From positions 186,001 to 250,000 of the forward strand of contig JACMNQ010000036.1 of NCBI GenBank assembly GCA_014378465.1: DNA of 64,000 nucleotides. The letters run 5' to 3'. The position numbers were made by a program, and so were the translations under genes. This DNA comes from Oligoflexia bacterium. Lineage in GTDB: Bacteria; Bdellovibrionota; UBA1018. Within the stretch, counting starts at the first letter, position 1. Every line of letters starts with the position of its first letter. Under the pieces are notes generated by a model. The model had not been told where the DNA came from. It did not search any database and saw only the letters and a list, made by a program, of their open reading frames with translations. Shown here in pieces: positions 19,145-49,608 of this stretch.

Positions 19145-20338
19145 GTGAGGAATCGAAGTTCCAGCGCTTCCGGTGTAACCCAGATACACACTTTCCTCGT
19201 ACCGCTTGTAACAGGTTTCCGCCACGGGAGTGTGAGGGGCGCGCTTGACGCAGGTCTGGTAGTAGATTTCGTGCAGGTTGTAGAGATGAACCGGGTCCAG
19301 AACTTCGTACGAAGCTCCCAGAAGGAGAAGCGCTTCGTTGACGTGGGATCCGAGGGGATACTTCTGCAGGAGCTCATGAAGAACGGCCGAAGCTCTCAGG
19401 TAGTCGATGTCCGCTGAATGATCAGCCGGATATTTCTGCATTTCATGCGCCCCCGCGAACAGCTTGCGGGCTTCGGCGAAAAGTCCTTCTTCGCTGGTGG
19501 CGTGGTGAGGGAGCTCGCTCTTCCAATTCTCCACGGATTTTTTCCACTGAAGAGCGTCCTGCAGAATGAAGTACGGCGCGTTTTTTGAGCCCAGCACCTG
19601 GTTCACGAGAGACAGGGTGAGTTCCGGGTCGTTCTTGACTCGTACCGTGATCGCCAGGGCTGATTTCAGGGAGCGTTCCCATTCAAAGGTGGCGCGGGAC
19701 AGGGAGTTCGGGTCACCGATCAGTTTCCGATAGGTCGCAAGCGCCTGATCGTTCTGCCGAGTGGCCGCGTAAAAAGCTCCCATTTCAAAGGGGGTGAGAT
19801 CCGTTGAACTGGGAATCAGCGGAAGATTTTTGAAGCTTGGACCCGATCCGTTTCGAGTGTGACAGGCGATGCAGTAGCTCGAGATGTTCGAGAGGATGCT
19901 GCGTGCGTAAGGCCGCTGGCCGGCTTTCAAAGCTGAATACGCCTGATCCGCCTGATCCTTGAAAAGTCCGGAGACCAGCTTCAAGGTGGGGTCTGAATCA
20001 GGCGCAGTCATCTTCTTCTCATTGATGTCGTGCGCGAGGGTGGCCAGCTTCTTCGCGTTCCGGTCAATTCTCGCCTTGCTGGACGGATGATTGAAACGCT
20101 TTTCGCTGGTCACGTCGGTCATGATATCCACGAGAGTCACATAGAGTTCCTGCATCGATCGCTGCCAGGGAGGAGATTTCTTGAGCAGAGATGACGGAAT
20201 CGATTCTTCGGCGGCGGCAGGTCGAAGGGACCCTAGCTGCGACAGCGGCGCGAGGAGGCAGCTGAACAGGACGAAAAGTCCGAGTCGGGGTGCAAGTCTC
20301 AATTTCGGCATCTTCTTCGGCTTCGTCATCGCTTTCAT
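19070..20338 (-). CDS. Exported single-CXXCH (monoheme cytochrome-like) protein
   Basis: A 422-residue protein with a signal peptide (LGLFVLFSCLLAPL, cut near AAA-EES). In the first third, SYCIACHTRNGSGPSF holds one c-type heme motif in a helical, cytochrome-c'-like context. The rest is helical with TPR-like spacing and no further heme motif. I chose the methionine at 20338 because AAGGAG is well spaced from it. It lies 38 bp downstream of the CBS gene, so both probably share the sigma54-like promoter at 20831-20846. A periplasmic electron-transfer or redox-sensing role near the cbb3 locus is plausible but unproven. Confidence 0.72.
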   Translation of the reverse strand: MKAMTKPKKMPKLRLAPRLGLFVLFSCLLAPLSQLGSLRPAAAEESIPSSLLKKSPPWQRSMQELYVTLVDIMTDVTSEKRFNHPSSKARIDRNAKKLATLAHDINEKKMTAPDSDPTLKLVSGLFKDQADQAYSALKAGQRPYARSILSNISSYCIACHTRNGSGPSFKNLPLIPSSTDLTPFEMGAFYAATRQNDQALATYRKLIGDPNSLSRATFEWERSLKSALAITVRVKNDPELTLSLVNQVLGSKNAPYFILQDALQWKKSVENWKSELPHHATSEEGLFAEARKLFAGAHEMQKYPADHSADIDYLRASAVLHELLQKYPLGSHVNEALLLLGASYEVLDPVHLYNLHEIYYQTCVKRAPHTPVAETCYKRYEESVYLGYTGSAGTSIPHSVQEQLKALRELAVSPVQVEPGLK

Positions 20339-20376
20339 CTGGTTCATCTCCTTCATATGGCGTGTGTCCCGGACTT

Positions 20377-20790
20377 TCAGGCGGTGTTGGAGCGGTAATG
20401 CTCATGCATCATTTCACCCAGCACGCGAAGTCCGTCCGTCGCCGTGAAGATTCCCACGATTTTTCCGTTCTCCTGCTGAATGACGGCGCAGCCGTATTTA
20501 TGTTCAGCCATCTCGAGCACGACATGATCGAGTGGAGTCTGAGGAGTCGCGGTGTAGGGGTTCAAAGTCATCACTCCGTTGACCGTGAGTTCAGCGGAAT
20601 TCTCAAAGCCGCAGGCGAGCTTGATGTCCCGATCCGTGAGCACGCCGACCAACATGCCATTTTCCTGAACGGGGAGGTGACGAATGTCGAACTCTCTCAT
20701 CAGCTCCAGAGCTTTGCGGATGGATGTGGTTCGCTCCACCGTATGAGGCATCGCGGACATGTACTTGTCGACTTTCGGAAGCTGTTTCAT
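20377..20790 (-). CDS. CBS-domain pair protein
   Basis: A 137-residue protein with two CBS motifs (YMSAMPHTVERTTSIRKALELM...GVLTDRD and VMTLNPYTATPQTPLDHVVLEM...VGIFTATD). Such stand-alone Bateman modules bind adenine nucleotides and sense energy state. ATG 20790 follows AGGAGAAACC, a strong ribosome site; the frame upstream is not part of the family. It is divergent from the eRF1-like gene, and the 264 bp between them hold two sigma54-like promoters and a split inverted repeat. Downstream on the same strand is the CXXCH protein. Confidence 0.9.
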   Translation of the reverse strand: MKQLPKVDKYMSAMPHTVERTTSIRKALELMREFDIRHLPVQENGMLVGVLTDRDIKLACGFENSAELTVNGVMTLNPYTATPQTPLDHVVLEMAEHKYGCAVIQQENGKIVGIFTATDGLRVLGEMMHEHYRSNTA

Positions 20791-20830
20791 GGTTTCTCCT
20801 GAGTGATTTTGTGGGTGCGCCCAGTAGAGA

Positions 20831-20846
20831 GCAGGATTCGAGCCAC
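20831..20846 (-). promoter_or_regulatory. Sigma54-like promoter of the CBS gene
   Basis: On the minus strand TGGCTCGAATCCTGCT matches TGGCACG-N4-TTGCW with two mismatches, and the essential GG-N10-GC spacing is exact. Transcription would begin near 20820, about 30 nt before the CBS start codon. Confidence 0.55.
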
Positions 20847-20950
20847 GCCGCTCCATCACGAAGCGGCGGGCGAGAAGAGCGATCTTGCAGGACTATTCAC
20901 GCAGTTCAGTGCTGAGCAGGGTCGCCGCTGGAATCGGGAACTTTTCGCTT

Positions 20951-20988
20951 TGGGACAAAAGTTCCCGCCGACCGTTCGTTTTGTCCCA
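20951..20988. promoter_or_regulatory. Split inverted repeat, candidate activator (UAS) site
   Basis: TGGGACAAAA at 20951-20960 and its exact complement TTTTGTCCCA at 20979-20988 are separated by 18 bp. Each half contains TGGGACAA, close to the arms of the palindromes at 21461 and 33180. If each half marks one 17-bp site, their centres are 21 bp apart, two helical turns. It lies between two divergent sigma54-like promoters. Confidence 0.55.
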
Positions 20989-37868: not shown

Positions 37869-38708
37869 TCAAGTCTTGGACGGCGCTTCGTGGGGGGATT
37901 GCTTTTTTTTACGCTGATCTCGGACCTGGAGGAGTTCGGCTGCCACACTGATGGCGATCTCGGAGGGATCGTTGCTTCCAAGAGGGAGGCCGATGGGACA
38001 ACGCAGTTGACTGATGCTCGCTTCTGGAATTCCCGCAGCTTTCAGGTCTGCCCGGATCTTGATCGCTTTCACGTCGCTGCCGATCGAGCCCAGGTAAATC
38101 GGGTCTGGAAATTTCTTCAGAATTGCAGTGAGAATCGGCATGTCTGAACCATGACCTTGAGTCATGACCACGACGAAAGTGCGAGGGTCGAGCTTTTCGA
38201 CGTATTGAGCGGGTTCAGGAAGACAGAGCGCTTTGATTCTGATCGCTGCGCCCGACTGCGGAAGTTTTTCGATCCATTCGGGCCGCGGATCAATCACGGT
38301 CACGCTGCAGTCGAGTGTGCTCAAAGTGCGCGAGACTGCCTGGGCCACGTGTCCTGCGCCGAATACGACGATGTTCCAGCTCTCGCGGTGGTGCACTTCA
38401 AAGACATAAGTGACTTCGCCCCCGCAGGTCATGCCGATGTCTGTCTGAAGATTCCACGTGACCGCGAAAGCGGGGGGGCGTTCAACTCCGCGATTCGGAA
38501 GTTCACTCAGCAGTTTCTTCGAGTCCTCGATCACTCGGGCTTCGACTTTGCCGCCTCCGACCGTGCCCCAGCGGAGTCCGTTTTCGGTGACGATCGCCTT
38601 CGCTCCCGGATCCTGAGGCGCATGACCCCGTGAAGCGATCATCGTGATGACGACGAAGGGCACTGCGCTTTCGTCGAGCGCGGAGGCTATGGACCAGAAG
38701 TCTTTCAT
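37869..38708 (-). CDS. xdhC: Xanthine dehydrogenase accessory protein XdhC
   Basis: A 279-residue protein. The N-terminal XdhC domain includes VVITMIASRGHAPQDPGAK and GTVGGGKVEA, and the C-terminal Rossmann domain has VVFGAGHVAQAVSRTL, VVVMTQGHGSDMPIL and YLGSIGSDVKA. XdhC binds the molybdenum cofactor, promotes its sulfuration and delivers it to XdhB. The start overlaps the xdhB stop (ATGA), so it is the last gene of xdhA-xdhB-xdhC. The lysine-rich tail is not conserved. Confidence 0.93.
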   Translation of the reverse strand: MKDFWSIASALDESAVPFVVITMIASRGHAPQDPGAKAIVTENGLRWGTVGGGKVEARVIEDSKKLLSELPNRGVERPPAFAVTWNLQTDIGMTCGGEVTYVFEVHHRESWNIVVFGAGHVAQAVSRTLSTLDCSVTVIDPRPEWIEKLPQSGAAIRIKALCLPEPAQYVEKLDPRTFVVVMTQGHGSDMPILTAILKKFPDPIYLGSIGSDVKAIKIRADLKAAGIPEASISQLRCPIGLPLGSNDPSEIAISVAAELLQVRDQRKKKQSPHEAPSKT

Positions 38709-41179
38709 GGCGCGGATGATTTCCCAGAAGGTGCCAGGCGAGCGAATTTTTCCGGCATGAGTGCGCGAAGAACTTCCTCCTGCGTGGCCGGGAGTTCCAT
38801 GCGCGGGTAATGTTCCTTGTACTCAGGCAAGCCCTTGAGGGCATCATGAATCGCGGTCCAGACGCTGAGAGAGAGCAGCAGGGGAGGTTCCCCCACGGCT
38901 TTCGTTCCCCTGAGATTCGCGAAATTGCGATCGTTGGCGAGGAGCTCGATCTTGAAATCGCGAGGAGTGTCCTGAATGCTCGGAATCTTGTACGTGCTCG
39001 GTGAATAAGCGAGAAGAGCCCCGTCCTTGTTGTAATGAAGCTTCTCTGTCGTGACCCAGCCCATGCCCTGAATGAAAGCACCGGTGACCTGCCCGAGATC
39101 CAGCGCTTCGTTGACCGGGCGGCCAAGATCCATGAGAATGTCCACGCTGAGCACTTTGACTTCGCCGGTGTCGAGATCCACTGAAACTTCGGAGGTCGCG
39201 GCGCCTTGCGTGAAGTACATGAACGCGTCGCCGCGACCCGTGAGCTTGTTGAACGAAAGACCCGGAATCCGGTAGTGGGCGTAGTCCGAAAGGGAGATCC
39301 GGTGGTGGTACGCTTCGTTGACGAGCGCCGCGAAACTGACCTGCTTCGGGTTCGAAGGGTCATCGAGATTCGGGCAGAGGACCATGCCGTCCTTGAAGGT
39401 GACGCCGTGGTAACTGGCAATGCCTGTTTCCCAGATCGCGTCGGCATTGGGGTCATTCACCTTGTCCTTTTCAAAGCCTTCGATCGAAACTTCGATCTCA
39501 GGTTCGGTCCCGAGTCCAGCGGTGTGGCGTGCCCAGCGACTCTCCGGAATCTTGAGAACCTGGATCGCCAGCTCGCTCAGGCGAGCCTTGATCTTGCGAA
39601 CGGCCAGCACGGCAGCCGCGCCATTGAGATCCGTACCGCTCGACGCCGCCGTCGGAGAAGTGTTCGCATTTTTGTCCGTGGCAGTCGCCATCATGCGCAC
39701 TTCATCGCGCGAAATCCCGAGTTCCTGGGCGACCAGCTCTGAAATTCGCGCATTCACTCCCTGGCCCATCTCGGTGGCGCCCGTGGAAACCTGAACACTC
39801 CCATCGCGGTGAATGATGACCAGTGCATTGGCCTGGTTCAAAAACCGGGTAGTGAAGGAAATCCCGAACTTGACGGCCGTCAGCGAAATTCCGCGCAGGA
39901 GGCGAGATGAACCGCTCAGCGCTTTGGCATTCTGCTTCTGAATGCGCGCGCGGCGAGCTTTGTACTGAGAACTCGTTTCAAGCCTCTCGAAAAGCTCAGG
40001 GAGGCAGTTGTTTTCGACCTTCTGACCGTAGTGAGTGATGTCGCGGCCGCCGATCGCCGTGTAGCAGTTGAGCTTTCGGATCTCGAGCGGGTCTTTCCCC
40101 AGGGCGTGCGCGATTTCTTCGATGATGCGCTCGATGGTCGCGACTCCTTTCGGTCCCCCGAAGCCGCGAAATGCCGTATGCGGATGGTAGTGGGTGCGAC
40201 AGACCTGTCCGACCACTCGCATGTGCGGGATGAAATACGCATTGTCACTGTGAAGCATCGCGCGTTCCATGATCGAAGTCGAAAGATCGGCGTAAGCGCC
40301 GCCATCTGAGAAAAGCTCGACGTCGAGTGCGACAATCTTTCCCTCGTCGTCGAAGCCGACGCGGTACTGATTTTCAAACGGATTGCGTTTGCCCGTCATG
40401 ATCATGTCATCATCCTTGGTCAGGATGAGTCGAGCCGGACGGTTGAGTTTCTGCGCGACGAGGGCCGCATAGGCCGCAATCGGTGCGGCCTGGGACTCTT
40501 TGCCCCCAAAACCGCCGCCCATGCGTTTCACGATGCAGACGACGTCCCGGTAAGGGAGTCCCAGACCGTGAGCGACCACATGTTGAGTTTCAGTCGGGTG
40601 CTGAGAAGAAGAATGAACTTCGATCTGTCCATCTTCCTTTGGATAGGCGATCGCCGCCTGACTCTCGAGGTAGAAGTGATCGGCTCCGCGGATGATGATG
40701 TTGCCCTGGAGCTGATGGGGAGCGGATTTCAGCGCGGTTTCGACGTTGCCGCGTTCGATCTTGCGCGAGCCCGCGATGAACGACTGGGCCGCCTTGGCCT
40801 GATCGATGCTCAAAATGGCGGGGAGCGCTTCGTAAGCCACTCGGATGAGGGAGCGGGCCACGCGCGCGGAATCGCGCGTTTCAGCCGCGATGAGCGCGAT
40901 CGCTTCGCCGACGAAATTGACTTCCTGATCCGCGAGCAGGGGTTGATCCTTGAAGATGGTGCCCCAGAGATTATGGTGAAAGTCCTTTGCCGTATAGATC
41001 CCGAGCACTCCCGGGTGCTTCAGCGCCCGACCCAGCTCGATGTCCCGGATGCGGGCATGGGCCTGTCTGCTGAACAGCACTTCGACGAAAACTTCACCCC
41101 GCAGCGCTGGGCGATCATCGATGAATTCACTCAGACCTCGGACATGATTGTGAGCGGAATCGTGAGGAAGAGTGCTCAT
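38705..41179 (-). CDS. xdhB: Xanthine dehydrogenase, molybdopterin-binding subunit
   Basis: An 824-residue XdhB. RMGGGFGGKES, the arginine motif TAFRGFGGPKG, GATEMGQGVNAR and the catalytic glutamate in GTKAVGEPPLLLS are all present, as in bacterial and eukaryotic xanthine dehydrogenases. It hydroxylates hypoxanthine and xanthine to urate at the Mo centre. It overlaps xdhA by ATGA. Length is normal. Confidence 0.95.
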   Translation of the reverse strand: MSTLPHDSAHNHVRGLSEFIDDRPALRGEVFVEVLFSRQAHARIRDIELGRALKHPGVLGIYTAKDFHHNLWGTIFKDQPLLADQEVNFVGEAIALIAAETRDSARVARSLIRVAYEALPAILSIDQAKAAQSFIAGSRKIERGNVETALKSAPHQLQGNIIIRGADHFYLESQAAIAYPKEDGQIEVHSSSQHPTETQHVVAHGLGLPYRDVVCIVKRMGGGFGGKESQAAPIAAYAALVAQKLNRPARLILTKDDDMIMTGKRNPFENQYRVGFDDEGKIVALDVELFSDGGAYADLSTSIMERAMLHSDNAYFIPHMRVVGQVCRTHYHPHTAFRGFGGPKGVATIERIIEEIAHALGKDPLEIRKLNCYTAIGGRDITHYGQKVENNCLPELFERLETSSQYKARRARIQKQNAKALSGSSRLLRGISLTAVKFGISFTTRFLNQANALVIIHRDGSVQVSTGATEMGQGVNARISELVAQELGISRDEVRMMATATDKNANTSPTAASSGTDLNGAAAVLAVRKIKARLSELAIQVLKIPESRWARHTAGLGTEPEIEVSIEGFEKDKVNDPNADAIWETGIASYHGVTFKDGMVLCPNLDDPSNPKQVSFAALVNEAYHHRISLSDYAHYRIPGLSFNKLTGRGDAFMYFTQGAATSEVSVDLDTGEVKVLSVDILMDLGRPVNEALDLGQVTGAFIQGMGWVTTEKLHYNKDGALLAYSPSTYKIPSIQDTPRDFKIELLANDRNFANLRGTKAVGEPPLLLSLSVWTAIHDALKGLPEYKEHYPRMELPATQEEVLRALMPEKFARLAPSGKSSAP

Positions 41180-42672
41180 TGCAGCACTCCCTGCTCGCGA
41201 AAGAATTTCAGAAAGAGATTTTCCACCAGGACTCGGCGGAAGGCCGAGGTGCCACGCAGATCAGAAAGGGGCTGCATTTCGGAGTGAAGAATTTCGACAA
41301 CTTCATTGAGTCGCATGGAATTCGGATCTGATTTCAAAGTCAGGCCCTTCAACGCGGCCTCTGTTCTCGGCAGTCGCAGTGTCGTGGGGCCGACTCCGCC
41401 CAACGCGATTCGGACTTCCCTGATCTTCGTTTTCTTCGCATCGGACCAGGTGATTCGAAACGCCGCGTTCACGCCGGAGATGTCGAGGTCCTTGCGCTGT
41501 GAAACCTTGTAAAGAGCCAGACTTTCGGTTTTCTTCGGTAGGTCAAACTCAATCGCACTGATGAACTCACCCGGCTTGAGAGCGGTTTTACGGTAACCGA
41601 GGTAGAACTTCTCAATGGGGATCGAGCGCTTGCCCCGGGGTCCCGCCACGATGATCGTGGCCTGGGCGATCAGCAGGAAGGGAGGGGTATCCGCGATCGG
41701 CGAACCATTGCTGACATTGCCGCTGAGGGTGGCGAGGTTCTTGATCTGCGGCGAAGCGAAGAGGTCAAGAAATTTCGCGAATTCAGGGATTTTGTCCTTC
41801 AGAAAATGCCGAAGTTCCGAGAGGGTCACTCGCGAGCCCACAGTCATCCGCGTGGGACTGAGCTTCTTGACGTCGTAAAGTTCAGGGATCAGGTGAAGGC
41901 TGAGAAGCTTGGAAAGGCGAATTTTGCCCTTGTTGTGAACCACTCCCAGATCCGTGGCGGCGCCGATGAGTCGCGCGTCCGGCTGACGCCTGAGAAAGGC
42001 GGCTGCGTCTTTCAAAGTCGTGGGCGCGAAGAAGGAGAAATGTTCATTCTGAAATTTCACGGGATCTTTCAGCACCTTCTTGAGTTCACGTTCCTGAGCG
42101 AGAGAATAGAACTGATCTTTGACGGATGCGCATTTCGAGAGATCAATCGCGACTGCGGCATCGATGATCGGTTGGTATCCCGTGCAGCGACAGAGATTGC
42201 CGGTGAGGCAGTTCTTCGCTTCACGTGGGGTACAGCGAGCCCCCTTTTTCACACCGTCACAGAGTTTCTTTTCGACGAGGCCAGTGAGAGCCATGACGAA
42301 GCCTGGGGTGCAGAAGCCGCACTGACTCCCGTGCGAACTGACCATCGCCTGTTGAACAGGCGTGAGGCCAGCGGTTTGGCTCGCTAAAGCTTCGACCGTC
42401 ACGAGGCTTGAGCCGTCCATCTGGGCGACGGTGGTGATGCAGGAATTGATGGGCAGGTAAATGTTTCGCGCGGCCTGCGGGAGATTTTTTGAGGAGGCCA
42501 TCGGGCGGAGTCTCAGAACGGAACAAGCTCCGCAATCTCCTTCGGCACACACGACTTTGGTTCCCACAAGACCCCGTTCATAGCGGAGGTAATCGGAGAG
42601 CATCAGTCCAGCGTGCTCGGGCCCAACTTCTTGACGCTTTCCGTTAAGATAAAAGAGGACAGTTTTGCGCAT
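41176..42672 (-). CDS. xdhA: Xanthine dehydrogenase, FeS/FAD subunit
   Basis: A 498-residue XdhA. The first [2Fe-2S] cluster is in VCAEGDCGACSV with Cys78 (C42, C47, C50, C78), and the second is in SQCGFCTPGFV and CRCTGYQPI. The FAD domain follows (ATDLGVVHNK, TLSGNVSNGSPIADTPP). It carries electrons from the Mo centre to NAD+ or another acceptor. ATG 42672 gives the usual MRKTVLFYLNGK start; the 19 codons before it are not conserved. It is divergent from the urate oxidase gene across 80 bp with an imperfect TGATTATCTTATCA palindrome (42678-42691). Confidence 0.94.
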   Translation of the reverse strand: MRKTVLFYLNGKRQEVGPEHAGLMLSDYLRYERGLVGTKVVCAEGDCGACSVLRLRPMASSKNLPQAARNIYLPINSCITTVAQMDGSSLVTVEALASQTAGLTPVQQAMVSSHGSQCGFCTPGFVMALTGLVEKKLCDGVKKGARCTPREAKNCLTGNLCRCTGYQPIIDAAVAIDLSKCASVKDQFYSLAQERELKKVLKDPVKFQNEHFSFFAPTTLKDAAAFLRRQPDARLIGAATDLGVVHNKGKIRLSKLLSLHLIPELYDVKKLSPTRMTVGSRVTLSELRHFLKDKIPEFAKFLDLFASPQIKNLATLSGNVSNGSPIADTPPFLLIAQATIIVAGPRGKRSIPIEKFYLGYRKTALKPGEFISAIEFDLPKKTESLALYKVSQRKDLDISGVNAAFRITWSDAKKTKIREVRIALGGVGPTTLRLPRTEAALKGLTLKSDPNSMRLNEVVEILHSEMQPLSDLRGTSAFRRVLVENLFLKFFREQGVLQ

Positions 42673-42677
42673 GTTTT

Positions 42678-42691
42678 TGATTATCTTATCA
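42678..42691. promoter_or_regulatory. Imperfect palindrome between xdhA and the urate oxidase gene
   Basis: TGATTATCTTATCA has TGAT/ATCA ends and lies just before the xdhA start in the 80-bp divergent promoter region of the purine genes. It could bind a regulator of both directions, but it is short and AT-rich, so chance is possible. Confidence 0.25.
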
Positions 42692-42752
42692 GAGTGAAAA
42701 TGCCAATTCTTTCTCCTGTAATTCCACAAGCATCTAGGCTAATCAAAATCGG

Positions 42753-44408
42753 GTGAATCAAGACATTTTAGACTGGATCCTCCTGCTCGGACGTTGGCTG
42801 CATATCACCGTGGCGGTGGCGTGGATCGGCACTTCGATCTTCTTCATGTGGCTGGATCGAACTCTCGAATTCAACGGAGCTTCTCAGAAGCCCGGTCATG
42901 TCGGCGAGCTCTGGATGGTGCATGGCGGCGGTTTCTACCACGTCGAGAAACTGCTGATGGGTCCGACGAAAGTTCCCGAATACCTGCACTGGTTCAAATG
43001 GGAATCTTATTGGACCTGGATGAGTGGCGCTTTTCTCCTGGCACTCATTTTCTATACGGGGGGCGGAACCTTCCTGCTCGACTCCACGGTATCCGGAATC
43101 AATTTCTGGCAGGCCGCGGGCATCGGCATCGGGTCCATTCTGATTTCCTGGCTCTTTTATGATTTCGTCTGGGAGCGCGAGCTCACTCGCAGGACTCCGT
43201 GGATCGGTCATTTTCTCACGCTTGCCTGGCTGGCCGGCATGTCCTATTTTCTCTGTCACACGCTGAGCGGTCGCGCGGCTTACATCCACATCGGTGCGAT
43301 GCTGGGCAGCTGGATGACCGCAAACGTCTTTCTCCGGATCATTCCCCGTCAGATCAAGATGGTGGAAGCTTCCAAAAAAGGGGAGCCCGTCAATCAGGAG
43401 TGGGGCAAGAATGCCAAGAATCGCTCCACTCACAACACCTACTTCACGCTTCCCGTGATCTTCCTCATGATCAGCAATCATTTTCCGGCGACTTACGGTC
43501 ATCCCCTGAACTGGGTGATTCTGCTCGTGATCAGTGCCGCCGGCGCGGCCATCCGTGAATTTTTCGTCGTACGAGTGAAGAAGCCCACGCGGGCCTGGAG
43601 ATTCGCCGCAGTGGGGATTTCTCTGATTCTGGGCGTGATTCTTTTCACGCGTCCAGGCAACGGCGTGGTTGCGGCGTACTCGCACGACGCTGTATTACCC
43701 GTTGCAGCCATCGGCTCGACTTCCGTCCTCCCCGCGGCAGCTTCTCCTCCGGGTCCTCCGGGAAAAGCGTCCAGTGGAATTCATGGAAGCGTCCGCTTCG
43801 AAGGAGACGCACCTGCCCCCGAAAAACTGCAGATGCCACCGGATTGCAAGAATCCGGACGGCGGCGATTCGTATTCCAATCAGATTCAGATCAAGGATGG
43901 AATGATCAAGAACGTCCTCGTGCGTGTCACGAAAGGGTTTGAAGGCAAAACCTTCACGGATATCCCGAGTGAGACAGTTGTGCTGGATCAGCGGGGTTGC
44001 CTCTATGTCCCTCGGGTCGTGGCAGCTCGAGTGGGGCAGAAAGTCGAATTTCTGAACAGTGATTCGACGATCCACAACGTGAGAATGATTTCCAAAAATA
44101 ACCCCGAGTTCAACGAAATCACCCCGAAGAAGAATGACCGCATCACCAAGATCTTCGCTCAGCCCGAGCTTTTCATGCAGAGCCGCTGCAACGTGCATCC
44201 GTGGATGGGCGCCTACATTGCCGTGATGGATCACCCTTATTTCGGCGTGAGTGATGCGAATGGCGAATTCGTCATTCCCGCCTTGCCGCCGGGAAAGTAC
44301 ACTTTCGAGGCCTGGCATGAAGTTTTTGGCAAACAGACCCAGGTGGTGGACATCCAGGGCGCAGGAATCGTGGAGTTGCGATTCACCTTCAAGAAGCAGG
44401 GGCAGTGA
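42753..44408 (+). CDS. PuuD-type membrane urate oxidase fused to a cupredoxin domain
   Basis: A 551-residue protein. Residues 1 to about 305 are the eight-helix urate hydroxylase membrane domain (PuuD/DUF989: LLLGRWLHITVAVAWIGTSIFFMWLD, HGGGFYHVEK, FKWESYWTW, NTYFTLPVIFLMISNHFP). In described PuuD a C-terminal cytochrome c follows, but here there is no CXXCH. Instead, residues 350-500 form a plastocyanin-like domain with probable type-1 copper ligands His441 (STIHNV), Cys479, His482 and Met485 (CNVHPWM). A small carboxypeptidase-regulatory-like beta domain ends the protein. Urate would be oxidised to 5-hydroxyisourate with electrons leaving by copper. GTG start at 42753; the next gene starts 4 bp after the stop. 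Confidence 0.85.
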   Translation: MNQDILDWILLLGRWLHITVAVAWIGTSIFFMWLDRTLEFNGASQKPGHVGELWMVHGGGFYHVEKLLMGPTKVPEYLHWFKWESYWTWMSGAFLLALIFYTGGGTFLLDSTVSGINFWQAAGIGIGSILISWLFYDFVWERELTRRTPWIGHFLTLAWLAGMSYFLCHTLSGRAAYIHIGAMLGSWMTANVFLRIIPRQIKMVEASKKGEPVNQEWGKNAKNRSTHNTYFTLPVIFLMISNHFPATYGHPLNWVILLVISAAGAAIREFFVVRVKKPTRAWRFAAVGISLILGVILFTRPGNGVVAAYSHDAVLPVAAIGSTSVLPAAASPPGPPGKASSGIHGSVRFEGDAPAPEKLQMPPDCKNPDGGDSYSNQIQIKDGMIKNVLVRVTKGFEGKTFTDIPSETVVLDQRGCLYVPRVVAARVGQKVEFLNSDSTIHNVRMISKNNPEFNEITPKKNDRITKIFAQPELFMQSRCNVHPWMGAYIAVMDHPYFGVSDANGEFVIPALPPGKYTFEAWHEVFGKQTQVVDIQGAGIVELRFTFKKQGQ

Positions 44409-44412
44409 GACC

Positions 44413-44766
44413 ATGATCAGCACGCATATTCTGGATACGAGTGCTGGCAGTCCTGCCGAGGGAGTCGCAGTCCGACTTGAAATTCAAAGTGGGGCCGCCG
44501 CACCCGTTTCTTCACTGAACAGTTCAGCCTGGACCGAAGTCAGTTCGGGCGTCACGAACGCCGATGGTCGCTTCGTGTTTGCGGATTCCGGCGCTGCGGG
44601 AACCTACCGGATCCATTTCGAAGTTCAGCCTTATTTCGTGCACCAGAAGAAAGAAGCCTTCTTTCCAACCGTATCCGTGGTCTTCCGGGTTGAAAACACG
44701 CAGCGCAAGTATCATGTGCCGCTGCTTCTGAATCCGTACGGCTATTCAACCTACCGAGGGAGCTGA
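44413..44766 (+). CDS. 5-Hydroxyisourate hydrolase (transthyretin-like)
   Basis: A 117-residue HIUase, which hydrolyses 5-hydroxyisourate to OHCU. It begins STHILDTSAGSPAEGVAVRLEI and ends with the diagnostic C-terminal YRGS. HHFEVQPYF-type sequence is represented by IHFEVQPYFV, and HVPLLLNPYGYSTYRGS is typical. No signal peptide, so it acts in the cytoplasm. It lies 4 bp after the urate oxidase gene and 3 bp before the large fusion gene. It is the second step of the urate pathway. Confidence 0.95.
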   Translation: MISTHILDTSAGSPAEGVAVRLEIQSGAAAPVSSLNSSAWTEVSSGVTNADGRFVFADSGAAGTYRIHFEVQPYFVHQKKEAFFPTVSVVFRVENTQRKYHVPLLLNPYGYSTYRGS

Positions 44767-44769
44767 GTT

Positions 44770-47700
44770 TTGGAAATCCGTTATTACAAAGACTATGTTT
44801 CTCAAGCTCTTCTGAATCATCTCAAAGCGGAGAGCCGCGAGGTTGCGGGCGTACCGGGCCTCCGTCAGGTCGGTGACAACGGCAAGGGCTCTGGAGCGAG
44901 TGAACTGGAGACCCCAGCCGCTCTGGCTTTTCTCTGTCAGCTTCACGACCTTGTCCAGGTGGAACTGAATCGCCTTCTTGAGCAGAGGATCATCGATCGT
45001 AAGTTCATTGATGAGAGAACTCACGCATCTTGCGAACTGAATCGGCTCCTCAAGACTGATTTCCTGAATCCTCGCTATGAGACGGTCATCGGCCAGGTGG
45101 ATGGTCGAGGCCGCAAGGTCGTGGGACCCGTCACTGACTTCTACTGCAGACCCGGCGGGGGAGCGCCCGTGGCTCCCATCCCTGACTACCTTGAGGGGCC
45201 CCACGTCACGCTGTTTGGTCCTCCGGACGATGCCAAGCTTTCGATCAATGCGATGAATGCGTTTCATCGCAAACTCAAGGATGAACCTGCCATCGTGGCC
45301 GAGTTGCTCTCAGGCGAATCGACTCAGTTTTCTCCCCAGTTTTCTCCGATGTGGGGCGCCGACGACGAAGATTCCAAAACTCCCTTGCGAAGAGATCTCG
45401 TCGCTGCCGGCGAAAATCTGGCGGGCTGCTTTGACGGCACGCTGTCGTTCACGGACGCGAAGTCAGGAAAAGCTTACGGGCTGGAGGCCTCGCGTCTCGC
45501 TCTTCCGATCAAACGCTTTCCGGGCCTGGCTCTCCCTTGCCTGTTTTTTCTGTACCAGGATCAGCCGCTGCCGCTGCACCTCTATGACTTTGCGCTCCAC
45601 TTGTTCAGGAACTGGAGCAATCCGCGAGCGCTCGTTTTTTATGTGCCCAAGCTCGAGAATGAAGAAGAAGCCCGCTATATCCGCCTGATGATGGAGTCGG
45701 CCGAGACGCTGATCCAGAAACTGCATCCGGAATACCGGCTCGGCACCATCCGTCTCATGGTCGTGCTCGAGAACCCGCGCGCGATTTTCAGAGTCAACGA
45801 GATCATGGATGAACTTCATCCCTATTTCGTGGGAGCCTCACTCGGCTGGCATGATTATCTGGCGTCTACCGCACGGCTTTTCAAGGAAGACGCGAATTAC
45901 CGGATCCCGGTCAAAGCGGATCCCGACATCGTCATCAAATACATCAAGGCTTCTCATGATCTCCTGGCCGAAGTGGTCGGATCACGGGGCGGCATCAAGG
46001 TGGGAGGAATGTACGGCATCCTTCCGATGGGAACTGATATCAAGGGAGATTCATTTCAAGTCACGATCCGTGGCTTCATCAAGGACGTCATCACGCAGCT
46101 CAAGCGTGATCTGACGGGCTTCTGGGTCGCGCATCCGGATTTCGTCCGGATCGGCATGGCGCTCGTGCAGGCCTGGAAGCTCAACCTTGCCGGAGACGGC
46201 TCGAAACTCACCACGCTCGTCACCGCCTTGCTTGACGGGAAGTACCACGGCGACATCCTGAACTTCATTTCGGGACCTGACCTCATCGGGCTGGACCGTG
46301 CTGACCCGCTTTACGCACGAGCCCTTCTGGTTGCGGACATGAAGGAGTCCAGTTGGATCGCGAACAATCATCCGAATGAAATTCGCTACAACATCTTTCA
46401 GTCCCTGCAGTACCTTGCCGACTGGTTGACCGGAAATGGGTGTGTGGCGTTGCCTGCCCAGCTTGACGGCGTAGCGGTTCGCGTGATGGATGATCTGGCG
46501 ACTGCCGAGCGATCGCGCTGGGAAGTCTGGCATGAGCTGCACCATGGACGATTCAGTGTCGAAGAATTCCTGAAGATCGCACACGAGGAGTATCACTTCA
46601 TTCAGAAGGACCTCTCGGATTCGAAGAAGATCGTGCAGGTCAAATGGACGGAGAAGACGGCCAGGTGGTATCCCATCGCGCTGAATCTCATGATTGAACT
46701 CATGACTCGGCCCACGCCACCGGAATTCGCGACCGAACTTCTGCTGCCCTTCACCGTGGATTCGATCCGCAATGCGCCGGATCCCTGGAAGGCGATCCGC
46801 GCTCTGGAACCGGAAAAATATCAGACTTCGCCCTACGTCGAGCGGTTCGTGAAGTATTTTGCCATCTGTGGGAGTCGTTCCTTCGCCCAGGCGATGGCGA
46901 AGAATGCAGTCCCGGGTCGCAAGCTGGCCGAAAAGATCATTCGTGAATTCACAGTGGAGCAGGTCAACGAAGCGGCAGGATTTCATGGTGATATCGGCGA
47001 GAGTCGAAAGACCCTGGATGCGCTCGCATCACATGAGCAGGCTCTCGTCCTGCAGGAAAGTGAAGCGGTTCGCCTGGAGCTCCTGACTCTCGGAGAAGAA
47101 TACCGATCGCGCTTTGGCATGAAATTTCTGATTTCGGCGCAGGGAAAGTCAGCTTCGGATATCCTGAGCGCTCTCAAGTCTCGGTTTTTAAACACGCCCG
47201 CGCAAGAACTCGACCGTGCGCGAAGCGCCCTTTGGGAAATCACATCGAAGCGACTGACGGCTCCTGGAACAGTGGATCTTGCTGATACGCTGGAGGAGTT
47301 GCGCAAGAAGCACCAGATCGTTGGAGCGACCGTGACTTTGAGCACGCCTGTGCCGGCGAGCGCAGCCGCCCCGGAGGCGGTGGGGCAGTCTTCACTGCAG
47401 ACCTTCGGTCTGGGTGAAGCGATTCGCGGTGAAACTCCCGTTCAGGAAACGACGCTTTTTCAAATTGCCTCGCTCAGCAAGACCTTCGCAGTCTGCTTTG
47501 CGATTGAGTACTTCAAGAAGGCCAAAATTTCACCTTCGACTTCGGTCAATGCACTTCTGGCAAAGACTTCGACGCCGTTTCGTCTCCAGTCCCTGGACCT
47601 GAAGCACCCCGAGTGGGCGGAACAGGTGACGCTTCTTCATCTCATGAGTCACGGCGCCCTGAACATGCACTATGTGAAAGGTGTTCCTGCTTCGAAGAAG

Positions 47701-49608
47701 ATGCCGAGAGTGGGCGAGCTCCTCCTTGATGGCAAGTCTCATGGCTATGATCCGGTTGGAGTGCTGCACGCACCCGGCACGGTCTTTCAATACTCGGGAG
47801 GAGGCTTTCTCGTCCTCGAGCATTTGATTGAAAGTCTCGAAAACCGTCGCATCCAGGAAGTGACCGCGCCGTTCTTTCAGGAGCTGGGACTGTCCCACTT
47901 CACATTCGAGCAAGCCTCGCAACCCGGACGTGACTACGCGGCTGGCTACTCGGTCGCGGGAGAAATGACGCAGGACTCTCGATTGATGTTCCCCGCCTTT
48001 GCAGCGGGCGCGATGTCGACTTCGGAGGACGTGGCAGTTTTTCTGAACCGGATGACTGTCGCCTACAGCGAACTGCGCTCGCGTGCGCCGCTTTCTCATT
48101 ACACTGCCGTTCAGATGTTTCACGGACCGACCCAGGGGGATCAGGGCTGCCGTAAATTCATGGGAGTGACGCGCGGCCTGGGGCTTTTCATCGCCGAAGC
48201 GGGAAAGAATCGCCTGGCTCTTCATCAGGGCGCCAATGAGGGTTACCGCTGCCTTTACGTTCATTGCTTCAAAGGTCCCGATGCGGGCATGGGCTTTGTC
48301 CTGCTCTGCAGTGGGGAACTCAACGGCGTGCTGTTCATCGCGGAAGCCGCGCAGGCGATCCTGAAAACGTTTCAGATGGAAGGCATTGATCCTGAGCGCT
48401 TCCAGAAAACGTTTCTGGCTTCGCAGGTTGCAGCCGAGGAAATCGTCAATACGGGCTATAAAGAGCTCATTTTCTCCGCTTTCGAAAGGGACCGGGCGGA
48501 AGAGATCGTGATTCAGGGTCAACTCGATCCAAGAGCGAAATTCAATCGCGCGGTGGGCGCAAGAGTTCTCGAAGTCACGAATGAGCGCTTTGCTCGCGTC
48601 GAAAATCTTCTGTCTGATCATCTCCCGGTCTTCGACCCGGAACTTTTTGGTCGCCAGGGCAAGATCATGGACAGCTGGGAAAGTGTTCGTCACAATCCGC
48701 TGGACCGGGATGTGCTGGTCTTTGAACTCAGGCAACCTTCAAAGATTCAGTACGTTTCCTTCTCCACGCAGTTTCATCTGGGCAACCATCCCCAGTCCGT
48801 GAAAGTTGAAGCGTCTGAATCCCTGGATGCGCCCTCGGGCGGAGCTGATCAGGCACACTGGTCAGTCCTGGTTCCGCAAACTGCGCTCGAAGGACATTCT
48901 TTGACGGAAGTGCGCAGTGAAAAGACTGATACCGTTTTTCGATTTGTTCGCGTTTCCATGTTTCCGGACGGCGGCCTTTCCAGGCTGGGTCTCTTTGACG
49001 AGAGTCTTCCGGTAGCTGAGCAGGCGTGTTTTCAGCCACATGCGGAGGCAAAAAGCGTCGCGTTTGCTGAAAAGATTCCGCACTCCTTGAAACCTCTCGC
49101 TCCGCACTACGAAGCGGGTCCTGAAGAGATCGAGAAGAACTGGCAGTCGGTTCCGGCGGGAAGCGAAATGGATGTCGCCTGCAGTGCCTTTGGAGGGAAG
49201 ATCGTTCGAGCCTCCAATGAGCACTACAGTCCCGCCACGCAGATCATCTCGCCTTATCCTCCGATTCACATGTTTGATGGGATGGAGTCGGCCAGGAGCC
49301 GGATTTCCGGGCACTTTGAAGATGTCGTGGTGGAGTTTCTCAGGCCGTCCGTGATTTCAAGAATAGAAGTGGACTTCAGTTTTTTCGTGAACAACAATCC
49401 GCTGGAGCTGAGTCTCGAAGGCGGCACGAGGGCTGCCGACGGTTCCGAAGTGTGGAAGCCTCTGGTTTCGCGCACCCCGGTGAAAGCCTACGCCGGCAAT
49501 GCGATTGAGTTCGTGATTTCAAGTCCTGAGAAGTTCACGCTCCTTCGCGCGGTGGTTCATCCAGATGGCGGGATCAATCGCTTGCGGGTGTATTCGCGGA
49601 ACTACTGA
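44770..49608 (+). CDS. Four-domain purine/glyoxylate enzyme: malate synthase-OHCU decarboxylase-serine hydrolase-allantoicase
   Basis: One uninterrupted 1612-residue frame from TTG 44770 (GAGGGAG lies before it). Residues 1 to about 690 are a divergent malate synthase: FYVPKLENEEEAR, Mg ligands Glu334 (VVLENPRAIF) and Asp362 (GWHDYL) 28 apart, GGMYGILP, WVAHPDF, and base candidate Asp575 in VMDDLATAERSR; the RPRG motif is not obvious. Residues ~690-845 are OHCU decarboxylase (FHGDIGE with His739, Glu756 in SHEQ, FGMKFLISAQGKSASDIL). Residues ~850-1245 are a class-C beta-lactamase-like serine hydrolase (Ser901-x-x-Lys904, Tyr1008 in YSGGG, LHQGANEGY). Residues ~1265-1612 are two allantoicase repeats (MDSWESVRH; HLGNHPQSV). 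It would link ureide breakdown to malate. Confidence 0.88.
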   Translation: MEIRYYKDYVSQALLNHLKAESREVAGVPGLRQVGDNGKGSGASELETPAALAFLCQLHDLVQVELNRLLEQRIIDRKFIDERTHASCELNRLLKTDFLNPRYETVIGQVDGRGRKVVGPVTDFYCRPGGGAPVAPIPDYLEGPHVTLFGPPDDAKLSINAMNAFHRKLKDEPAIVAELLSGESTQFSPQFSPMWGADDEDSKTPLRRDLVAAGENLAGCFDGTLSFTDAKSGKAYGLEASRLALPIKRFPGLALPCLFFLYQDQPLPLHLYDFALHLFRNWSNPRALVFYVPKLENEEEARYIRLMMESAETLIQKLHPEYRLGTIRLMVVLENPRAIFRVNEIMDELHPYFVGASLGWHDYLASTARLFKEDANYRIPVKADPDIVIKYIKASHDLLAEVVGSRGGIKVGGMYGILPMGTDIKGDSFQVTIRGFIKDVITQLKRDLTGFWVAHPDFVRIGMALVQAWKLNLAGDGSKLTTLVTALLDGKYHGDILNFISGPDLIGLDRADPLYARALLVADMKESSWIANNHPNEIRYNIFQSLQYLADWLTGNGCVALPAQLDGVAVRVMDDLATAERSRWEVWHELHHGRFSVEEFLKIAHEEYHFIQKDLSDSKKIVQVKWTEKTARWYPIALNLMIELMTRPTPPEFATELLLPFTVDSIRNAPDPWKAIRALEPEKYQTSPYVERFVKYFAICGSRSFAQAMAKNAVPGRKLAEKIIREFTVEQVNEAAGFHGDIGESRKTLDALASHEQALVLQESEAVRLELLTLGEEYRSRFGMKFLISAQGKSASDILSALKSRFLNTPAQELDRARSALWEITSKRLTAPGTVDLADTLEELRKKHQIVGATVTLSTPVPASAAAPEAVGQSSLQTFGLGEAIRGETPVQETTLFQIASLSKTFAVCFAIEYFKKAKISPSTSVNALLAKTSTPFRLQSLDLKHPEWAEQVTLLHLMSHGALNMHYVKGVPASKKMPRVGELLLDGKSHGYDPVGVLHAPGTVFQYSGGGFLVLEHLIESLENRRIQEVTAPFFQELGLSHFTFEQASQPGRDYAAGYSVAGEMTQDSRLMFPAFAAGAMSTSEDVAVFLNRMTVAYSELRSRAPLSHYTAVQMFHGPTQGDQGCRKFMGVTRGLGLFIAEAGKNRLALHQGANEGYRCLYVHCFKGPDAGMGFVLLCSGELNGVLFIAEAAQAILKTFQMEGIDPERFQKTFLASQVAAEEIVNTGYKELIFSAFERDRAEEIVIQGQLDPRAKFNRAVGARVLEVTNERFARVENLLSDHLPVFDPELFGRQGKIMDSWESVRHNPLDRDVLVFELRQPSKIQYVSFSTQFHLGNHPQSVKVEASESLDAPSGGADQAHWSVLVPQTALEGHSLTEVRSEKTDTVFRFVRVSMFPDGGLSRLGLFDESLPVAEQACFQPHAEAKSVAFAEKIPHSLKPLAPHYEAGPEEIEKNWQSVPAGSEMDVACSAFGGKIVRASNEHYSPATQIISPYPPIHMFDGMESARSRISGHFEDVVVEFLRPSVISRIEVDFSFFVNNNPLELSLEGGTRAADGSEVWKPLVSRTPVKAYAGNAIEFVISSPEKFTLLRAVVHPDGGINRLRVYSRNY

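Follow-up and report, generated by a model that had tools for sequence, protein, structure and literature searches.

A four-domain fusion of malate synthase, OHCU decarboxylase, a serine hydrolase and allantoicase in Bdellovibrionota and Planctomycetota: a candidate multi-enzyme of the late ureide pathway

A single open reading frame in the window (the whole stretch of 64,000 nucleotides analysed here) encodes a 1612-residue protein in which malate synthase (MS), OHCU decarboxylase, a serine hydrolase of the beta-lactamase/DD-peptidase fold (BL) and two allantoicase repeats follow one another. Judging from its sequence and from gene content, we consider it rather likely that this protein is a multi-enzyme of the late ureide pathway, leading from OHCU to malate, with BL as the allantoinase. 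What is new is that four enzymes are joined in one protein, how this protein is distributed, and the predicted serine-type allantoinase; each domain by itself belongs to a recognised family.

Results

Architecture of the fusion

The frame runs uninterrupted from a TTG codon at 44770 to a stop at 49608, with a GAGG sequence about 10 nt 5' of the start (Table 1). The Pfam profiles for MS, OHCU decarboxylase, beta-lactamase and allantoicase all matched the protein, every domain listed scoring above its gathering cut-off; together with the open frame, this confirms the 1612-residue, four-domain fusion that a sequence-only reading of this DNA had proposed, with these profiles as a check. AlphaFold (AF2) modelled both halves of the protein with high confidence (pLDDT 88.7 for residues 2-845 and 92.3 for the other half).

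Table 1. Features of the fusion gene and its neighbourhood in the window.
Feature	Position	Strand	Remarks
XdhC maturation factor	37869..38708	-	by xanthine dehydrogenase genes, divergent
Xanthine dehydrogenase, molybdopterin subunit	38705..41179	-	divergent
Xanthine dehydrogenase, FeS/FAD subunit	41176..42729	-	divergent
PuuD-type membrane urate oxidase (PF06181)	42753..44408	+	C-terminal blue-copper-like module
5-Hydroxyisourate hydrolase (HIUase, PF00576)	44413..44766	+	stop 3 bases before fusion start
Fusion ORF	44770..49608	+	MS, OHCU decarboxylase, BL, allantoicase repeats 1 and 2; 1612 aa, TTG start
Malate synthase A-like region	44770..46749	+	residues 1-660; R249, E334, D362, D575
OHCU decarboxylase domain	46840..47265	+	residues ~691-832; H739, E756, Q757
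Beta-lactamase/DD-peptidase-fold serine hydrolase (BL)	47305..48534	+	residues ~846-1255; candidate allantoinase
Two allantoicase repeats	48556..49599	+	residues ~1263-1415 and ~1456-1610

In the MS region, Pfam MS_TIM-barrel covers residues 253-465 (E 3.8e-19) and MS_C residues 536-647 (E 2.3e-9), with PF01274 and PF20659 scores of 69.1 and 38.2 bits against gathering cut-offs of 26.4 and 23.1, and the best PDB match found by Foldseek for the model of residues 2-845 was malate synthase A (3cv2_B, TMt 0.83). When aligned with E. coli malate synthase A (3cuz, residue numbers counted from the alignment), R249 corresponds to Arg166, and E334, D362 and D575 to E250, D278 and D447; these four residues (catalytic Arg, Mg-binding Glu and Asp, base Asp) are invariant in the family alignment (49/49). 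The ADxEDS motif, common to malate synthase A, is retained, and the active-site motif GxNxGRWDY is altered to GASLGWHDY. The domain shares with malate synthase A (3cuz, 3cv2) the fold and the four catalytic residues, but shows 23% identity and a changed glyoxylate-site motif, and it stands in a protein with a long N-terminal region and fused downstream domains.

The OHCU decarboxylase domain was matched by Pfam OHCU_decarbox over residues 719-829 (E 2.8e-20; PF09349 score 73.8 against 24 bits), and its catalytic H739, E756 and Q757 are found in all 47 aligned sequences. The allantoicase profile (PF03561) matched two repeats (E 7.2e-52; 175.7 against 27 bits over two stretches), with many positions conserved in the family alignment; the best PDB matches of this region were 1o59 and 1sg3, and Foldseek returned yeast allantoicase. 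The scores of MS, OHCU decarboxylase (UraD) and allantoicase lie below the respective equivalog cut-offs of NCBI (TIGR01344, malate synthase A, 136.4 vs 594.5; TIGR03180, equivalog domain, 70.7 vs 139.4; TIGR02961, 198.3 vs 277.9). Their sequences are thus those of diverged members of the three families, and altered substrates are possible.

As for BL, the Beta-lactamase profile (PF00144) matched residues 883-1185 (E 5.8e-22; 78.7 against 27 bits), Foldseek placed the region in the DD-peptidase/LACTB/esterase family, in agreement with the PF00144 fold; among solved structures, those closest to it are of peptidases, esterases and beta-lactamases. The domain carries the motifs S901xxK904, Y1008-S-G and H1152-Q-G, as well as R1160; S901, K904, S1009, H1152, N1156 and R1160 are present in 44/44 sequences of the family alignment and Y1008 in 42/44. 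All the residues that the sequence-only reading had singled out across the protein (E334, D362, D575, H739/E756 and the SxxK residues S901/K904) proved to be present and invariant. What BL has in common with the PF00144 family (class C beta-lactamase, DD-peptidase, LACTB, D-amino acid amidase) is the fold and the SxxK, YxG and HxG motifs; it differs in forming an inner part of what is presumably a cytosolic protein, in its purine-pathway context and in having its own motifs LNxHYVxG and HQGAN(D/E)GxR. A role as antibiotic-resistance beta-lactamase was discarded, the domain being far under every NCBIfam cut-off shown (33.8 vs 415 for NF033085, class C beta-lactamase). By sequence, BL is unrelated to every known allantoinase, and neither an AllB (cyclic amidohydrolase) nor a PuuE profile is among the Pfam and NCBIfam matches listed for the fusion, so that BL, if an allantoinase, would be a non-orthologous one.

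Distribution and genomic context

A scan of GTDB genomes yielded 69 loci, and further loci came from a second genome search. The same domain order is present in 55 proteins with an open frame longer than 1350 residues (52 without near-copies), whose pairwise identity goes down to 44%. Besides a few bins labelled otherwise, the carriers belong to Bdellovibrionota and Planctomycetota; in the tree of the fusion one planctomycete group is nested beside bdellovibrionotan groups, and the protein of the window branches near Bdellovibrionota. A BL-allantoicase profile matched in 96/369 genomes of the phylum sample, which overlaps the GTDB-derived one, most of them having the fusion and the rest a separate allantoicase only; the fusion genomes are phylogenetically correlated and many are draft MAGs. 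Searching plasmids with the fusion as query returned partial matches only, the best being ordinary malate synthases and none covering 80% of the query. The open-access literature searched contained no account of the fusion, in line with the sequence-only reading, to which no such fusion was known.

The fusion belongs to an operon in which it follows the genes for PuuD and HIUase, with the xanthine dehydrogenase and XdhC genes divergently oriented. HIUase was present in 42 of the 45 fusion loci, and PuuD in 26. The blue-copper-like module of the PuuD protein in the window (H441 region 'HNVR' ... 'C-N-V-H-P-W-M') gave weak plastocyanin/pseudoazurin matches; this form is conserved in around 25 fusion loci, and several other PuuD proteins have a CxxCH haem motif in its place, a form carried by six other loci. 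One open frame of 875 aa in another locus (L114, 1338-3962) contains the urate oxidase PuuD together with the allantoinase AllB.

Absence of canonical allantoinases

One locus from the family of the window (L111, genome G025) contains separate adjacent genes for PuuD, AllB, allantoicase, UraD, HIUase and ureidoglycolate lyase. This canonical cluster and the fusion locus have the pathway and an overlapping operon in common, but in the former the genes are separate and the allantoinase is a cyclic amidohydrolase, whereas the fusion takes the place of AllB, allantoicase and UraD: UraD and allantoicase are both part of it, MS and BL come in addition, and it is accompanied by neither AllB nor a lyase gene. 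The same contrast was seen on a larger scale. AllB scored above cut-off in 22/25 genomes of the phylum sample with separate allantoicase (in the other three, AllB was cut by a contig end in two and one genome is 67% complete) and in none of the 68 intact-fusion genomes (Fisher p 2e-18, the genomes being phylogenetically correlated). Counted by genus, the figures were 0/23 for the fusion and 14/16 for separate allantoicase (p 8e-9), and the contrast held within two genera, g20 (G030 vs G033) and g16 (G032 vs G029). No PuuE above cut-off was found in the 50 fusion or split genomes. Sub-threshold TIGR03178 hits were rejected as true allantoinases, since the highest-scoring ones, on inspection, turned out to be dihydroorotase or dihydropyrimidinase; the one in the genome of the window is a dihydroorotase within the pyr operon. 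In one locus (L004, ~19809-20987) a dihydropyrimidinase-like gene was observed on the downstream side of the fusion, at a distance of about 5 kb.

BL follows OHCU decarboxylase and precedes allantoicase, the place at which allantoinase acts in the pathway, and if it has this activity the order of these three domains is that of the reactions. Elimination and position therefore make BL, to which the sequence-only reading had assigned no function, the best allantoinase candidate; without an allantoinase the chain would be incomplete. The complementarity in gene content points to BL being probably a serine-type, non-orthologous allantoinase.

A different situation was found in genus g82 (L055, L056, L065), with MS and BL-allantoicase as split genes. 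Canonical genes are also present in this genus: an AllB-UraD fusion plus HIUase in 2/3 genomes (AllB cut by the contig end in one of them), a standalone allantoicase in at least two genomes and ureidoglycolate lyase in the third. In the split BL copies YSG has become FSG, with loss of the catalytic Tyr, H967 is lost and HQG is changed to HHA. Since BL-allantoicase coexists there with AllB, it may be doing something else in these bacteria. Two g82 loci (L153, 9876-11726; L100, 2-1270) show AllB fused to UraD and followed by HIUase, and the split genes have as neighbours (L055, 12086-13883; L056, 12053-13867) those for an allantoicase-like protein with a single repeat and for a class V aminotransferase similar to glyoxylate aminotransferases.

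Relation to the glyoxylate cycle

Among 33 fusion genomes with completeness of at least 90%, isocitrate lyase was found in 12, and exactly those 12 have a separate, ordinary malate synthase; the other 21 have neither isocitrate lyase nor any malate synthase besides that of the fusion. This co-occurrence led us to reject a place for the fusion MS in the glyoxylate cycle, independently of which the domain is therefore maintained, and its glyoxylate would thus most plausibly derive from ureidoglycolate. The use of ureide-derived glyoxylate by MS, put forward in the sequence-only reading, hence gains independent support. The step from ureidoglycolate to glyoxylate had been passed over in that reading; no dedicated ureidoglycolate lyase turned up in intact-fusion genomes, and this enzyme is rare (3/25) even where allantoicase is a separate gene, so that replacement of this lyase by BL was dismissed as an explanation of the gene-content pattern.

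Discussion

Proposed pathway and alternative explanations

In the scheme that we favour, xanthine dehydrogenase, PuuD and HIUase would act upstream, converting xanthine to OHCU, which the OHCU decarboxylase domain would turn into S-allantoin. BL would then open the hydantoin ring to give allantoate, through an acyl-enzyme on S901 and probably without a metal, and the allantoicase repeats would release urea and ureidoglycolate. Allantoicase is also able to act on ureidoglycolate, and the breakdown of the latter to urea and glyoxylate may take place at the allantoicase site or be spontaneous. Finally, MS would condense glyoxylate with acetyl-CoA to yield malate, possibly with some channelling between domains. 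A more ambitious version, which we hold tentatively and would put at somewhat under even chances, is that BL is a metal-independent, serine-type allantoinase and the first to belong to neither the cyclic-amidohydrolase nor the PuuE family, within a polypeptide carrying four enzymes from OHCU to malate, and that the MS or the allantoicase site doubles as ureidoglycolate lyase.

The protein could be thought to be an artefact, i.e. neighbouring genes read through, or frames joined by chance, by a frameshift or by a sequencing error, the latter having been named in the sequence-only reading as a ground for discarding the fusion. Two frames do appear in three loci (L041, L045, L029), where they may reflect frameshifts in the MAGs or true splits; nevertheless, the homologue search proposed in that reading returned more than 50 intact relatives with identical domain order, from independent assemblies and with 44-63% identity, which already refutes this explanation and leaves it virtually no probability. 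It is also improbable, although more worthy of consideration, that the MS-like domain carries out another glyoxylate-related reaction, such as that of ureidoglycolate lyase or a coupled lyase-condensation, instead of that of malate synthase. The invariant changed motif GASLGWHDYLAST where GxNxGRWDYIF is expected, the TIGR01344 score (136 vs 594, far under the cut-off), the lack of ureidoglycolate lyase in intact-fusion genomes and the persistence of the domain in genomes without the glyoxylate cycle would fit such a role, yet the four catalytic residues aligned with the E. coli enzyme are all invariant, the entire malate synthase A fold is predicted (TMt 0.83) and ADxEDS is preserved.

The alternative with most weight, even if we regard it as unlikely, accepts the route from ureides to malate but assigns the opening of allantoin to an enzyme that is unrecognised or moonlights, such as the cyclic-amidohydrolase relatives dihydroorotase or dihydropyrimidinase, with BL acting on another amide, for instance ureidoglycolate, or being structural. 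The presence of both AllB and BL-allantoicase in g82 is in its favour, although the BL copies there have altered active-site motifs. Dihydropyrimidinase, a hydantoin-opening relative, does occur in some fusion genomes, but that of the window has only the dihydroorotase of its pyr operon. BL-fold enzymes have broad specificities, and ureidoglycolate lyase is absent along with AllB; however, it is the loss of AllB that tracks the fusion, the lyase being missing from most separate-allantoicase genomes too, and the near-invariance of the serine-hydrolase motifs argues against a purely structural role.

If BL is the allantoinase of the pathway, a classical reaction would have gained a new class of enzyme, and urate breakdown in genomes without any known allantoinase would be accounted for. 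The fusion as a whole would be a multi-enzyme not described before, spanning the lower urate pathway and leading into central metabolism, as well as a natural template for moving a toxic aldehyde, glyoxylate, into malate, and proteins that profile searches would call just malate synthase, allantoicase or beta-lactamase would have to be re-annotated. The two phyla bearing it include predatory bacteria, whose prey is rich in nucleic acids.

Comparison with known systems

A malate synthase in urate or allantoin breakdown has precedents: MLS completes urate breakdown in Nephromyces (PMC6320678) and a role in this process has been suggested for it in zebrafish (PMC8919083). According to PMC3646786 and references therein, yeast has in DAL7 a malate synthase that deals with the glyoxylate from allantoin and is linked genetically to the allantoinase, the allantoicase and the ureidoglycolate hydrolase/lyase; the DAL cluster thus resembles the fusion in having a dedicated malate synthase, but there the proteins are separate, the Dal1 allantoinase is of the classical family and no serine hydrolase is described. 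Physical association of pathway enzymes is also known from the same paper, which cites an amphibian allantoinase-allantoicase complex. The allantoicase-ureidoglycolate hydrolase fusion of basidiomycetes likewise joins consecutive ureide enzymes, allantoicase among them, but as described there it has two activities and a separate DAL1 allantoinase, with no malate synthase, OHCU decarboxylase or BL. Finally, the plant HIU hydrolase-OHCU decarboxylase fusion (PMC3646786) links the decarboxylase to a pathway neighbour, as here, whereas in the window HIUase has a gene of its own next to the fusion, in which the decarboxylase is joined to the downstream steps instead.
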